A stretch of 64,000 nucleotides of DNA from NCBI RefSeq assembly GCF_000227765.1, contig NZ_JH165159.1, positions 805,433 to 869,432 of the forward strand. Reading direction: 5' to 3'. The DNA is from Neisseria wadsworthii 9715 (lineage in GTDB: Bacteria; Pseudomonadota; Gammaproteobacteria; Burkholderiales; Neisseriaceae). The notes under the pieces were generated by a model. The model was not told the DNA's origin. It was given only the letters and a program-made list of their open reading frames with translations, and searched no databases. The number at the start of each line of letters is the position of its first letter. The first letter of the stretch is position 1. A program made the translations under genes and the position numbers. Below, in pieces: positions 46,695 through 52,104 of the stretch.

Positions 46695-49600
46695 ATGTCT
46701 GCACTGCAAACTCTTCTTTCAAAATTTCGCGAGCTGACTCAAACCGAACGTGATAAAGGCACGGCTTTTGAGAACCTAATTATTCGTTATTTTGAAAACG
46801 AACCTTACTACCGTAGCCAATATGCCAAAGTGCAGACCTATGCCGAGTGGGCGCAAGAGCATTTTGAATCACTAGGACTAAGCAGCAAAACCGATGCGGG
46901 TATTGATTTAGTTGCTACTACTCAAGTTGGTGAGTTCCATGCGATTCAATGCAAAAACTATGCTCCGGAAAAAACCATTCAAAAAGCAGACATCGATAGT
47001 TTCTTTACCGCTTCCGGAAAACACTATTTCAACCACCGTTATATTGTGACCACTACCAACAAATGGTCATCGAATGCCCGTGCTGCGCTAATTGACCAAC
47101 ATATTCCGGTAGCGGTTATCAATCTGGAAGATTTGGAAAACAGCCGGATTGACTGGACACAATATCAAATTGATGCTTCTCCCGTATTAAAAGCGCGTAA
47201 AGATCTGCGGCCACACCAACAACAAGCACTTAAAAGTGTGCAAACCCGTTTTGACGGAGGGGAAACCCGAGGCAAACTGATTATGGCTTGCGGTACAGGC
47301 AAAACCTTCACCGGCTTAAAAATTGCCGAAAACATTGCAGGTGTAGGGAAGCGGGTATTGTTTTTAGTACCCGGTTTATCCTTATTAAGCCAAACCTTGC
47401 GGGAATGGACGCAAGACAGCGAAATCGCTTTAAACAGCTTTGCCGTGTGTTCCGATAGTGACGTTGGCAAGAAAGGTAAAAAAGACGAAGATGACCGTGT
47501 GCTGGTCACTACCAGTGATTTGCAATTTCCGGCGACAACCCATGCGAAAAGTTTGGCTCAAGCCATAAGTGTTGCCGAAGCCAAAAACAATCGGCAGGCT
47601 ATGACTGTTGTCTATGCCACTTATCACTCTATTGATGTGATTCATCAGGCGCAAAAACAATTCGGACTACCTGAATTCGATCTGATTATCTGTGACGAAG
47701 CCCACCGCACTACCGGAGCAACCTTCGACGGTGATGATGAATCTGCCTTTGTCCGTATCCATGATGCCGATTACATCAAAGGTGCAAAACGTCTGTATAT
47801 GACTGCCACGCCGCGCATTTACGGTGAGACCGCCAAAGCTGCTGAAGGAGTGGTGTTGTATTCGATGGATGACGAAACCCATTACGGCAAAGAATTTTTT
47901 GTTCTTACTTTCTCTCAAGCCGTTTCAGACGGCCTCTTAGTCGATTACAAAGTGATTGTGCTGGCGATTGAAGAATCACATGTCAACCGTCGTTTACAAA
48001 ACTTGCTTACCGATAGCAATAACGAGCTCAAAGTCGACGATGCCGCAAAAATCGTCGGCTGCTGGAAAGCCTTATCAAAATATGGGTTGAGCGGCGAGGA
48101 TGGGGCTTTATATAACCCCATGCGTCGAGCTGTTGCTTTTTGCCAAGTGATTGAAAAAGAATATAAAGGCAGCAAACACAAAGTCAGTTCGAAACTCATT
48201 GCCGAAATGTTCCAAGCCGTAATTGAAGAATACCAACAAGCCGAAAGCAAAGCTTTATTAGAACACAATCCCGATTTAAAACTGCCTCCGCAATTGGCCA
48301 TGAAGTGCGAAGCCGAACACGTTGACGGCAGCATGAATGCAGGCGAAAAAGAAAGCAAATTACAATGGCTCAAAGCAGAGCTGCCCGATAATACCTGCCG
48401 CATTCTTTCCAATGTACGTTGCCTGTCTGAAGGCGTGGATGTACCTGCACTTGATGCAGTACTGTTTCTTACACCGCGAAATTCACAAGTGGATGTTGTG
48501 CAGTCTGTCGGGCGCGTAATGCGCCGTGCAGAGGGCAAAAAACAAGGTTATGTCATTCTGCCGGTTGTGATTCCTGCCGGTATCGAAGCCGAAGATGCTT
48601 TGGATAAAAATGAAAACTACAAAGTCGTTTGGCAGGTGCTCAATGCCTTACGTGCGCATGACGACCGCTTTGATGCCATGATCAACAAACTAGAATTCAA
48701 CGGCCAAGATACTCAAAAAATGGAAGTGATTGCCGTTGCAGACAAAGTACAGGCAAAGCAAAAACGCCAAAACAAGAGTGCAAAAGCAGTAGGTAACGCA
48801 CGCGGTGGCAACGCTATCGGCACAAAACCCGAACACAATCCCGATAATCAAGGAACCATTGAATTCGAAATCGGCGAAATTGAACGCGCCTTGTACGCTA
48901 AAATCGTCAAAAAATGCGGCAACCGCCATCACTGGGAAGACTGGGCAGGCGATATCGCTAAAATCGCCCGCACCCACATCGACAGCATCACCGCCATTTT
49001 AGAAAACCCGGCTAACACCGCCGAACAAAACGCCTTTGAAGCCTTCGCCGCCGAATTACGCGACGACCTCAACAATGCCATTACCGATGCCGAAATCATC
49101 GAAATGCTGGCACAGCACATGATTACCAAACCCGTGTTCGATGCTCTGTTTGAACAATACAGCTTTGCCGAGCACAATCCCATGAGCCGCGCCATGCAAA
49201 ACGTGCTGGATTTATTACAGGCCAAAAACCTTCATAAAGAACGAAACACCCTTCAATCGTTCTACGAATCCGTACAAATGCGTGCATCCGGTATCGAAAC
49301 CGCCGAAGGCAAACAGAAAATCATCGTCGAGCTATACGACAAATTTTTCCGCAACGCCTTCCCCCGCATGACCGAGCGGCTCGGCATTGTTTATACCCCG
49401 GTTGAAGTCGTCGATTTCATCATCAAAAGCGTGGAAGACGTATTGCAAAACGAATTCGGCAGCAGCCTAAAAGATAAAGGCGTACACATTATCGACCCCT
49501 TCACAGGCACCGGCACCTTTATTACCCGACTGCTGCAAAGCGGCATTATTCCTGCCGACAGGCTACCTGAAAAATATCAAAACGAAATCCACGCCAACGA

Positions 49601-51179
49601 AATCGTTTTACTCGCCTACTACATCGCCGCCATCAACATTGAAGCCACCTATCACGGCATCTTGCACGGCAATATCGACGGCAAAATTTCAGACGGCCTC
49701 GCTTACCAACCCTTTAACGGTATCTGCCTGACCGATACTTTCCAAATGTACGAAAAAGGCGACATGCTCGATGAAATGCTGGTAGACAACAGCGCACGCC
49801 GCAAACGGCAGAAAGAATTGGATATCCGAGTGATTATCGGCAATCCGCCATATTCAGCGGGGCAAGAAAGTGCCAACGACAACAATGCCAATATCGAATA
49901 CCCGCATTTGGACGACCGTATCCGTGCAACTTATGCCGAGCATTCCAAAGCCACGAATAAAAACGCTCTATACGACAGCTACATCCGCGCCATCCGTTGG
50001 GCTTCCGACCGCATTGGAACGCAAGGCGTGATCGGATTTGTGACCAACGCGGGTTGGGTGGAAGCCAACACCGCCGACGGCTTAAGAAAATGCCTGTCTG
50101 AAGAATTCAGCAGTTTGTATATCTTTCATTTGCGCGGAAATCAACGTACATCAGGTGAACGTTCGCGCAAAGAAGGAGGCAAAATTTTTGGTTCGGGAAG
50201 CCGGGCTCCCATTGCAATTTCCATTTTGGTAAAAAATCCGCAAGCCCAAAAACAAGGGCAGATTTATTTTCACGATATCGGTGACTATCTAACCCGCGAG
50301 CAAAAACTGGAAACAGTTTCCGAATTCGGCAGTATTAACGGCATTAGCGCGCAAAACGCTTGGCAGCAGATCGTACCGGATGAATTCAACGATTGGCTCA
50401 ATCAGCGTGATCCGAATTTTGATGACTACATCAGCCTGGGAGATAAAAAAGATAAAGACGCGCTGGTGGTGTTTGAGAATTATTCGATGGGTATTAAAAC
50501 CAACAGAGACGCATGGGTTTACAATTTTTCAGGTAGCCTTTTGCAACAGAACATGCAAAACATGATTGGTTTTTATAACTCTGAAGTCAGTCGTTTTCAG
50601 ACTGCCTGTATCGGAATAGAAAAAGACAAACAGCCCGCAGTAGAAAGTTTTATTGATCCCGATACAACCAAAATCAGTTGGTCACGTGCATTGCGTTACG
50701 ATATTGGAAAAGGAAGAGAACATCAGTTTAAACCGCGAGCAATGACTTTGGGTTTATACCGCCCGTTTACGAAACAACACCTTTACTTCGACAGGAACTT
50801 TGTGAACGATATTGCACAAATTCCACGAATGTTTGCAAGTGGTGATTTAACCGTAAGTCGGGCATTTATGTCTGACACCAACGCCGTTATTTCCGTAACA
50901 GGCCGCGGAGCAACCAAAGAATTCTCCGCATTGATAACCAACGAAATTCCAGACTTGGAAATGATTTCCAAAGGGCAATGTTTCCCGATGGATTTGTATG
51001 ACGTTTCAGACGGCATAGAAACAGCCGAACGAACGAACGAACGAACGAACGAACGAACGAACGAACGAACGAACGAACGAACGAACGAACGAACGAACGA
51101 ACGAACGAACGAACGAACGAACGAACGAACGAACGAACGAACGAACGAACGAACGAAATTATACCGCACCGCAGCATAG
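46695..51179 (+). CDS. Type ISP restriction-modification enzyme, phase-variable
   Basis: This 1494-residue protein combines restriction and modification in one chain. Order: Mrr-like nuclease with D71 and QCK (85-87); superfamily 2 helicase with ACGTGKT (about 198-204), DEAHR (about 334), MTATPR (about 370) and QSVGRVMR (about 602); then an N6-adenine methyltransferase with DPFTGTGTF (about 933) and GNPPYSAG (about 1048); then the start of a target-recognition region. This is the LlaGI/LlaBIII (type ISP) layout, in which the helicase-translocase cuts after head-on encounter. Near its end it has a GQCFPMDLYD motif, then 33 CGAA units coding for (ERTN)n, then the short tail KLYRTAA. It is truncated relative to ISP enzymes, whose recognition domain continues; the missing part is encoded downstream in another frame. 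Four foreign-dialect or variant DUS lie inside it (47924-47935, 49688-49699, 50596-50607, 51005-51016), plus two native ones (48420-48431, 50090-50102). Confidence 0.9.
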   Translation: MSALQTLLSKFRELTQTERDKGTAFENLIIRYFENEPYYRSQYAKVQTYAEWAQEHFESLGLSSKTDAGIDLVATTQVGEFHAIQCKNYAPEKTIQKADIDSFFTASGKHYFNHRYIVTTTNKWSSNARAALIDQHIPVAVINLEDLENSRIDWTQYQIDASPVLKARKDLRPHQQQALKSVQTRFDGGETRGKLIMACGTGKTFTGLKIAENIAGVGKRVLFLVPGLSLLSQTLREWTQDSEIALNSFAVCSDSDVGKKGKKDEDDRVLVTTSDLQFPATTHAKSLAQAISVAEAKNNRQAMTVVYATYHSIDVIHQAQKQFGLPEFDLIICDEAHRTTGATFDGDDESAFVRIHDADYIKGAKRLYMTATPRIYGETAKAAEGVVLYSMDDETHYGKEFFVLTFSQAVSDGLLVDYKVIVLAIEESHVNRRLQNLLTDSNNELKVDDAAKIVGCWKALSKYGLSGEDGALYNPMRRAVAFCQVIEKEYKGSKHKVSSKLIAEMFQAVIEEYQQAESKALLEHNPDLKLPPQLAMKCEAEHVDGSMNAGEKESKLQWLKAELPDNTCRILSNVRCLSEGVDVPALDAVLFLTPRNSQVDVVQSVGRVMRRAEGKKQGYVILPVVIPAGIEAEDALDKNENYKVVWQVLNALRAHDDRFDAMINKLEFNGQDTQKMEVIAVADKVQAKQKRQNKSAKAVGNARGGNAIGTKPEHNPDNQGTIEFEIGEIERALYAKIVKKCGNRHHWEDWAGDIAKIARTHIDSITAILENPANTAEQNAFEAFAAELRDDLNNAITDAEIIEMLAQHMITKPVFDALFEQYSFAEHNPMSRAMQNVLDLLQAKNLHKERNTLQSFYESVQMRASGIETAEGKQKIIVELYDKFFRNAFPRMTERLGIVYTPVEVVDFIIKSVEDVLQNEFGSSLKDKGVHIIDPFTGTGTFITRLLQSGIIPADRLPEKYQNEIHANEIVLLAYYIAAINIEATYHGILHGNIDGKISDGLAYQPFNGICLTDTFQMYEKGDMLDEMLVDNSARRKRQKELDIRVIIGNPPYSAGQESANDNNANIEYPHLDDRIRATYAEHSKATNKNALYDSYIRAIRWASDRIGTQGVIGFVTNAGWVEANTADGLRKCLSEEFSSLYIFHLRGNQRTSGERSRKEGGKIFGSGSRAPIAISILVKNPQAQKQGQIYFHDIGDYLTREQKLETVSEFGSINGISAQNAWQQIVPDEFNDWLNQRDPNFDDYISLGDKKDKDALVVFENYSMGIKTNRDAWVYNFSGSLLQQNMQNMIGFYNSEVSRFQTACIGIEKDKQPAVESFIDPDTTKISWSRALRYDIGKGREHQFKPRAMTLGLYRPFTKQHLYFDRNFVNDIAQIPRMFASGDLTVSRAFMSDTNAVISVTGRGATKEFSALITNEIPDLEMISKGQCFPMDLYDVSDGIETAERTNERTNERTNERTNERTNERTNERTNERTNERTNERTNERTKLYRTAA
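47924..47935 (-). repeat. AG-dialect DUS inside the ISP gene
   Basis: TTCAGACGGCCT is AGGCCGTCTGAA on the opposite strand; it encodes part of AVSDGLL. A second exact copy is at 49688-49699. Confidence 0.9.
51005..51016 (-). repeat. AT-dialect DUS just before the CGAA tract
   Basis: TTCAGACGGCAT is ATGCCGTCTGAA on the opposite strand, the meningococcal/gonococcal uptake sequence. It encodes VSDGIE, 10 bases before the repeat tract. Confidence 0.9.
51026..51157 (+). repeat. Simple sequence repeat, 33 copies of CGAA
   Basis: 132 bases of uninterrupted tetranucleotide units, translated as (ERTN)n in the gene frame. Tetranucleotide tracts of this length in Neisseria and Haemophilus restriction genes change copy number by slipped-strand mispairing and switch the reading frame. 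All three frames through the tract are open on the plus strand. Confidence 0.98.
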
Positions 51180-51316
51180 AGAATTTAACCATCTGCTTGA
51201 CAGTAACGGGCAGCAAGGGCTTCTCGGTGCTGATGACCGATACCTTGCCCGACCTACATCTGATTGGCGATGCACAATGCTTCCCAATGTTCCTCTACGA
51301 AACGGAGGAAGCATAA
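51160..51316 (+). other. Second copy of the recognition-domain junction, in an alternative frame
   Basis: In frame 2 (shifted relative to the ISP gene) the sequence after the tract reads TVTGSKGFSVLMTDTLPDLH and then LIGDAQCFPMFLYETEEA, stopping at 51314-51316. It parallels the pre-tract frame-0 segment FSALITNEIPDLEMISKGQC/FPMDLYD. It would be joined to the ISP protein if the tract gained one unit (or lost two). Confidence 0.75.
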
Positions 51317-52104
51317 TGGCAACGCAAAAAGATTTATTTGCCGCAGATGCTGCACAGGGACCGTCTGAAACAGAAAAAGCACCGAAGCAGAAAAAGCTGG
51401 TACGTCGTTCTGCCATCACCGATGAAGCGTTAACGCATTTCCGCGAACCTTATTCAGCCGAAGATGCTGAAAAAATCGGCAAAGAAGACATTTTCTACTA
51501 TATCTACGGATTGCTGCACAGCGAGGAATACCGTGAACGCTATGCCGACAATTTAAGCAAACAGTTGCCGCGCATTCCGCGTATGAAAAACTATGATGAT
51601 TTTGCCGCCTTCAGCCAAGCCGGACGTGATTTGGCCGCATTGCATCTGAATTATGAAAGTGTGCCGATGTATCAGGGCATCAAACTTTCAGGCAGTCTGA
51701 AAGGACTCAAACTTACCCCGCAGCAAATTGTCGGTGGAGAAGACGAAGATTTCCGTGTGATAAAAATGAAATTCGCCAAAAAAGACGATAAAACCAAAGT
51801 TATCTATAACGGCAAAATCACGGTAGAAAACATTCCCGAAACTGCTTACGATTACATCGTGAACGGCAAGTCGGCAATCGAATGGGTAATGGAGCGACAA
51901 GCCGTTACCACCGATAAAAAATCGGGCATTACCAACGATGCCAACGATTGGGCACTCGAAACGATGGGTAATGCGCGTTATCCGTTAGAATTGTTGCTGA
52001 GGGTGGTTACCGTAAGCTTGGAAACTCAGAAAATTGTAAACAATTTACCTAAGCTGGAGATTTTGAAAAGTATGGAGGAAGTTGCATGCAACAACGACCA
52101 TTAG
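51316..52104 (+). CDS. C-terminal target-recognition part of a type ISP enzyme, separate ORF
   Basis: The 262-residue product begins MATQKDLFAADAAQGPSETE; ATG 51316 is preceded by GGAGGAAG and overlaps the frame-2 stop (TAATG). From residue ~40 it matches the C-terminal region of ISP enzymes: ITDEALTHF, KEDIFYYIYGLLHSEEYRER, KQLPRIPRM, AGRDLAALHLNYE, and YDYIVNGKSAIEWVMERQ. In known ISP enzymes this is part of the same polypeptide. Frame 1 is also open from the CGAA tract through this ORF, so a tract change of minus one (or plus two) units would fuse them. The 3' end overlaps the next gene by 19 bases. Foreign or variant DUS cores lie at 51361-51369 and 51690-51701. Confidence 0.8.
   Translation: MATQKDLFAADAAQGPSETEKAPKQKKLVRRSAITDEALTHFREPYSAEDAEKIGKEDIFYYIYGLLHSEEYRERYADNLSKQLPRIPRMKNYDDFAAFSQAGRDLAALHLNYESVPMYQGIKLSGSLKGLKLTPQQIVGGEDEDFRVIKMKFAKKDDKTKVIYNGKITVENIPETAYDYIVNGKSAIEWVMERQAVTTDKKSGITNDANDWALETMGNARYPLELLLRVVTVSLETQKIVNNLPKLEILKSMEEVACNNDH

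Follow-up and report, generated by a model that had tools for sequence, protein, structure and literature searches.

What does a long tetranucleotide repeat do near the 3' end of a type ISP restriction-modification (R-M) gene? The question is raised by a stretch of 64,000 nucleotides from Neisseria wadsworthii 9715 (contig NZ_JH165159.1, positions 805,433 to 869,432; "the window" below means this whole stretch), in which 33 units of CGAA interrupt such a gene. We propose that the tract is probably a slipped-strand switch that selects one of three C-termini for the enzyme. The gene (46695..51179, + strand, as are all features below) encodes 1494 aa in its present frame and ends KLYRTAA. Its Pfam domains lie in the order Mrr_cat_2, ResIII, Helicase_C, ISP_coupler, N6_Mtase and Type_ISP_C. 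This corresponds to an Mrr-like nuclease, an SF2 helicase, a coupler, an N6-methyltransferase (MTase) and a Type_ISP_C target recognition domain (TRD), the order of a type ISP enzyme. LlaGI and LlaBIII have the same domain order and are close homologues across these five parts (PMC4872093). These two enzymes differ in being single polypeptides, and their aligned sequences have one Loop VI and no tract. The (CGAA)33 tract (51026..51157) is perfect, with 33.0 copies and 100% match in Tandem Repeats Finder, whose sole further row in the window is a 21-mer in two copies. It encodes ERTN repeats and contains zero stop codons in all frames. An earlier note on this DNA had reported the tract and predicted three products from it, and both were confirmed in silico. 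Thirty-three units give 1494 aa with a short stop, 34 units give 1541 aa with a tail ending GDAQCFPMFLYETEEA, and 32 units give 1801 aa fused through the open reading frame at 51316..52104 (ORF2). The gene has a simple sequence repeat (SSR) in its 3' part and a different C-terminus in each of the three frames, which is the form of C-terminal phase variation. The single-polypeptide organisation of type ISP enzymes would exist in the fusion frame only; the TRD is split in the present 33-unit frame.

The Type_ISP_C domain (PF18135) is broken in two: profile positions 2-164 match the sequence before the tract, and positions 158-340 match ORF2. To place the pieces, LlaGI numbering was fixed via the catalytic NPPY motif (chain index + 164; N1018 from PMC4872093). 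In the LlaGI/LlaBIII alignment the segment preceding the tract (S1, 50880..51002) includes the beta-hairpin 1347-1358 and recognition Loop VI 1365-1374, the loop being defined as in PMC4872093. The +3 base pair is read by H1368, G1372 and Q1373 in LlaGI and by the equivalent N1360 in LlaBIII (PMC4872093). S1 has Glu (GAA, 50958-50960) at the H1368 position, and the LlaBIII residue aligned opposite it is N1360, the same number as in that paper. The tail (S2, 51179..51313; stop TAA 51314-51316), with the sequence ENLTICLTVTGSKGFSVLMTDTLPDLHLIGDAQCFPMFLYETEEA, is homologous to the pre-tract segment. In its own frame it encodes the hairpin and Loop VI a second time, with His (CAT, 51257-51259) at the base-reading position. 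Read in the ORF2 frame, the tail DNA is an open linker (51158..51315).

ORF2 (51316..52104, 262 aa) carries the remaining TRD, assigned by Pfam, AlphaFold2 (AF2) and fold matching as core helices plus guide. Its AF2 model, made from ORF2 alone, has a mean pLDDT of 84.7 and a pTM of 0.78, with residues 1-29 and 254-262 below 50. The model matches LlaBIII 1379-1577 (Z 16.8, rmsd 2.4 A, 199 aligned) and LlaGI 1382-1569 (Z 16.0, rmsd 1.9, 182 aligned). ORF2 begins after Loop VI, is predicted to fold alone and corresponds to the core helices and guide; the tract lies in the natural linker after this loop. In LlaGI and LlaBIII the guide plays no part in target recognition and base-reading loops I-VI lie further upstream (PMC4872093), in the part that here precedes the tract. 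The fused part, which the earlier note had called a C-terminal recognition region, is therefore scaffold. The note had also missed the second Loop VI in the tail, with a different base-reading residue, and the putative start of ORF2 itself. The ORF2 ATG shares one base with the tail stop (TAATG) and is preceded, at a 7-nt spacer, by a GGAGG Shine-Dalgarno-like motif (51304..51308). The composite motif GAAACGGAGGAAGC[AT]TAATG occurs once in each of the seven Neisseria loci examined. A 1-nt stop/start overlap couples translation of hsdM and hsdS in EcoKI (PMC3510504), and by analogy the tail form and ORF2 may be translated in a coupled fashion. The overlap and the Shine-Dalgarno motif thus suggest that the enzyme is probably split in this frame. 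Since ORF2 has its own start, the lack of fusion need not mean the lack of a guide.

Besides the window, five more Neisseria species have an SSR at the corresponding position, making six genomes in all. CGAA is repeated 33 times in the window, 9 times in HMSC077D05 (G031), 22 times in N. bergeri (G062), 30 times in Neisseria sp. 83E34 (G067) and 68 times in G026, and G022 has 11 units of ACGCA. In an exact-pattern search, runs of at least six CGAA units were present in 5 of 46 Neisseria genomes, each time at the ISP locus only. A repeat at the same site in six genomes, with CGAA runs confined to this locus, is not due to chance. The control unit read backwards (AAGC x6) was found in 6 of the 46 genomes (G062, G020, G008, G066, G003 and G015), so that tetranucleotide tracts of another unit are present in those six. 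Each of the six tract loci has a frame that continues into ORF2 (1738-1880 aa) and another that ends ...QCFPMFLYETEEA, its TAA overlapping the ORF2 ATG. The third frame is a short stop in the one-tail loci (window, G031, G022) and an additional tail ending ETE or ETEQ in the two-tail loci (G026, G062, G067). CGAA and ACGCA units are stop-free in every frame and encode hydrophilic repeats. The distance from module end to the DIFYY motif varies from 36 to 92 residues in one-piece relatives (27 loci measured). Changes in tract length should therefore be tolerable in this naturally variable linker.

The upstream ISP part was detected in 6 of 46 Neisseria genomes (E <= 1e-50) and ORF2 relatives in 10 of 83 Neisseriaceae genomes (E <= 1e-20). 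Seven of these ten are Neisseria, and six of the seven have the SSR. The seventh locus, in N. iguanae (G064), has no tract, keeps the TRD in the fusion frame and has lost the restriction and MTase (R+MTase) part. A large internal deletion there (L023, 4300-5470) joins the N-terminus to the Loop VI segment. Peptide searches in the fusion and tail frames matched 7 of the 46 genomes, all at the ISP locus, and showed no tail copies elsewhere in the genus; the tail/start motif gave 0 matches in viral contigs. Partial second matches to the ORF2 C-terminus, with stops, lie a few kb downstream of the main locus in G022 (G022:C1:1859793-1860004; L006, L007).

Relatives elsewhere are mostly one-piece, such as those of G039, G092 and G102 with open frames of 1610-1694 aa. 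Among 76 non-Neisseria loci (L024-L099), 70 match both TRD halves; L067, L073, L077, L081, L085 and L091 gave no first-half match. The best matches to the two halves fall in one frame in 67 of the 70, and 64 of those have no intervening stop, the exceptions being L030, L054 and L080. The halves are in different frames in L044, L065 and L084, the break in L065 lying inside the first half. For L044 (a metagenome-assembled genome of Pseudomonadales) and L084 (Bartonella massiliensis), the frame difference could be a real split or a sequencing error. A second copy of the first-half end was found in none of the 70 loci, the two matches in L065 being one split copy. The strict linker pattern fitted 27 of the 76 loci, and the remaining 49 were not counted as split.

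Substitutions in the tail indicate whether its frame is used. Over the 135 nt of the tail the window and G022 differ at 19 sites, distributed 5/0/14 by codon position. These change no amino acid in the tail frame and 13 in the fusion frame. For this pair the tail, ORF2 and the R+MTase part have a synonymous divergence (pS) of 0.60, 0.61 and 0.63 and a nonsynonymous divergence (pN) of 0.000, 0.087 and 0.117, respectively. Time since divergence is therefore about equal for tail and flanks, with the stronger constraint on the tail. By our arithmetic, with about 23% synonymous sites, neutral change would leave all 19 synonymous with a probability near 1e-12. For the remaining pairs of His tails pS is 0.40-0.78 and pN 0.01-0.16, except G026/G062 with a pS of 0.11; over the seven loci tail pN is 0.00-0.16 and pS mostly 0.40-0.78. 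The tail is under strong purifying selection, and thus its frame is probably used and is not merely an off state. In the three one-tail loci the stretch from tract to module has no ATG, GTG or TTG in the tail frame; the earliest of these codons come inside the module. With no upstream start codon available, constraint on the tail implies that the tail frame is sometimes the one set by the tract. The fusion-frame linker shows no sign of amino-acid constraint, though it is open in all six tract loci. The fusion form may also matter, and the open frame gives this moderate support.

The TRD halves are mosaic between species: window and G067 have a pN of 0.012 in the R+MTase part and 0.256 in the TRD part. 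Twenty-one nt 5' of the tract begins TTCAGACGGC (51005..51014), which we take to be the reverse complement of the neisserial DNA-uptake-sequence core. It is found at this place in five of the five CGAA loci and is absent there in the ACGCA locus of G022. Exchange of TRD halves by transformation is therefore plausible.

On this basis we propose the following for the three-way switch. With 33 units translation would stop just past the tract, about 140 nt short of ORF2, and the protein, lacking both core helices and guide, would probably be inactive. With 34 or 31 units it would gain the second hairpin and Loop VI module and stop on TAATG. ORF2, carrying helices and guide, would then be made in trans by coupled re-initiation, giving a two-subunit enzyme with the second reader module. 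With 32 or 35 units a flexible ERTN linker would fuse the protein to ORF2, and the one-piece enzyme would use the first Loop VI. The earlier note had suggested that the three C-termini could change specificity or activity. The three-way choice is strengthened by its presence in six genomes and by the selection on the tail, and a change of specificity between the forms stays conjectural.

How specificity might change can be outlined, as a proposal that we consider rather doubtful. The tract would choose the Loop VI cassette that reads +3. The fused enzyme would read with the first module, and the tail frame would supply a His module; a further tail, where a locus has two, would supply one with Gln or Glu. 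The methylation motif would then differ from frame to frame, and one gene would encode two or three specificities by slippage alone, through a strand swap of hairpin plus loop. The residues at the H1368 position also bear on the tail as a reader module in the proposed switch itself. There the module before the tract has Glu in four genomes (window, G022, G026, G031) and Asn in two (G067, G062). The tails have His in seven of seven loci, and the second tail has Gln in G026 and G067 and Glu in G062. Among 46 aligned TRDs this position is Q in 13, E in 9, H in 9, N in 6, D in 5, C in 3 and S in 1, a spread that looks as expected of a base-reading position. For nine of nine tail entries (eight distinct peptides), the best of 41 one-piece segments has the same residue at this position, a partly circular result as the loop is inside the compared segment. 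The nearest segment to the window tail is the native one of a Rodentibacter enzyme (L030). Within one locus the modules all differ at the base-reading residue (6/6 loci), a pattern that is only suggestive because the loci are related.

Several observations weigh against the switch or against its effect on specificity. Differences in tract length were seen between species only, with one genome per species. The assemblies are in the short state (window, G031), the last tail (G022, G026, G067) or the first tail (G062), and the fusion frame occurs in none of the six. With equal odds for the three frames, all six assemblies would miss fusion with a probability of 0.09 by our arithmetic, and this is therefore weak evidence against fusion as the usual state. 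An open fusion frame has a chance of 0.026-0.142 per locus given the tail protein, and of 0.24-0.42 of still being open after 19 neutral synonymous changes; by chance alone it appears only moderately improbable. Since proteins in the tail states still contain S1, their tail would need either to displace it or to work in some other way. For the G022 TRD in the tail state, the AF2 model (370 aa, 46 rows) has a mean pLDDT of 68.6, too weak to place S1 or the tail in the core. Only one PDB row, 4xqk_B (model 4-279, Z 4.8, rmsd 19.9), reaches the Loop VI part; it is of low quality and spans S1, not the tail. The His tail follows very different TRD halves (TRD part pN 0.22-0.30), which would fit general docking as well as a role in specificity.

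The alternative that survives best is plain on/off phase variation, in which one frame (fusion, or tail/split) is active and the rest are off; we regard it as a real possibility, short of probable. SSRs in restriction genes usually act in this way, and those of type III systems are described as on/off (PMC9577141). Repeats also lie near the 5' start of other type ISP genes, namely ATCA x19 in Lonepinella (L026:1518-1593), CCAG x26 in Avibacterium gallinarum (L032:1-104, at a contig edge) and ACAGG x12 in a RUG347 genome (L094:1616-1675), all candidates for conventional on/off switching. The truncated form, having no core helices or guide, should be crippled, and the missing fusion state in the six assemblies agrees with an off state. 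However, a tail with 19 differences and no amino-acid change is not expected if the fusion alone is active. If the split form alone were active, the open fusion frame in six of six loci would need chance or shared ancestry.

It is also conceivable, though unlikely, that the tail is a docking segment for separate ORF2, a split-protein interface and not an alternative reader, so that assembly or activity is tuned and specificity is constant. The tail ends exactly at the ORF2 start, and the variation of the TRD halves contrasts with the conservation of ORF2 and the His tail. The helices of this TRD part stack on the central sheet of the core (PMC4872093). Pure docking, however, does not predict that the modules of the two-tail loci differ at the base-reading position (His/Gln, His/Gln and His/Glu). 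Docking is the same switch minus the change of specificity, and our confidence in it overlaps with that in the three-way switch and is not to be added to it.

That the tails are relics of TRD ends displaced in successive recombination, the tract being a neutral or decaying scar, would suit the mosaic TRD halves, the uptake-like motif and N. iguanae with neither R+MTase part nor tract, but is very unlikely and is disfavoured by the substitution patterns, as the window/G022 tail has the pS of the flanking genes with a pN of zero, tail pN over the seven loci does not exceed 0.16 against a pS of mostly 0.40-0.78, the start/stop/Shine-Dalgarno motif is kept in 7/7 and all tracts are perfect, that of G022 having another unit.

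C-terminal phase variation has reportedly been found in H. canadensis. It is also described in N. gonorrhoeae, where NGK_1211 has two alternative ends plus a fusion to the next gene (PMC5320596). As in those cases, a 3' repeat tract here sets which of three C-termini is made. The gonococcal tracts are homopolymers in ispH, a membrane protein gene, mafB and a pilin cassette (PMC5320596), whereas here the tract has tetra- or pentanucleotide units and interrupts a TRD, and the alternative end is conserved and homologous to the pre-tract segment. The poly-G tract of NgoAV hsdS1/hsdS2 is a further likeness, being an SSR in Neisseria that splits or fuses a specificity protein; split and fused forms are both active, with different motifs (PMC9577141). 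NgoAV differs in that the protein is a type I HsdS subunit and the repeat a homopolymer, and its description in the passages available contains no duplicated reader module (PMC9577141). The domain split here is Type_ISP_C and not of the HsdS type; the locus lies outside the NgoAV group, though it may act in a similar way. In HpyAXVIII of H. pylori a type ISP gene is likewise interrupted by frameshifts, and the MTase plus specificity part is active alone; those frameshifts do not come from sequence repeats (PMC3936762). The R-M section of the Neisseria phasome paper names modA, modB, modD and a type I S subunit, and its main text has no CGAA, AACG, ACGA, GAAC or TTCG string (PMC5953494). No report of an SSR-switched or C-terminally phase-variable type ISP gene was found in the accessible portion of the open-licence full-text literature. 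C-terminal phase variation and the splitting or fusion of a specificity subunit by an SSR are thus already known in Neisseria, and the type ISP case is new as far as we found.

Type ISP enzymes serve as single-chain models of DNA reading, and the engineering of new specificity has been an unsolved problem (PMC4872093). If two or three base-reading modules do stand behind a slippage tract, the locus would illustrate how a cassette of roughly 40 residues might re-program specificity, and type ISP would join the R-M types able to drive phase-variable methylomes.

At its 3' end ORF2 overlaps the start of an aldo/keto reductase open reading frame (52086-52104). The window ORF2 extends 12 residues beyond the endpoint of the G067 ORF2.

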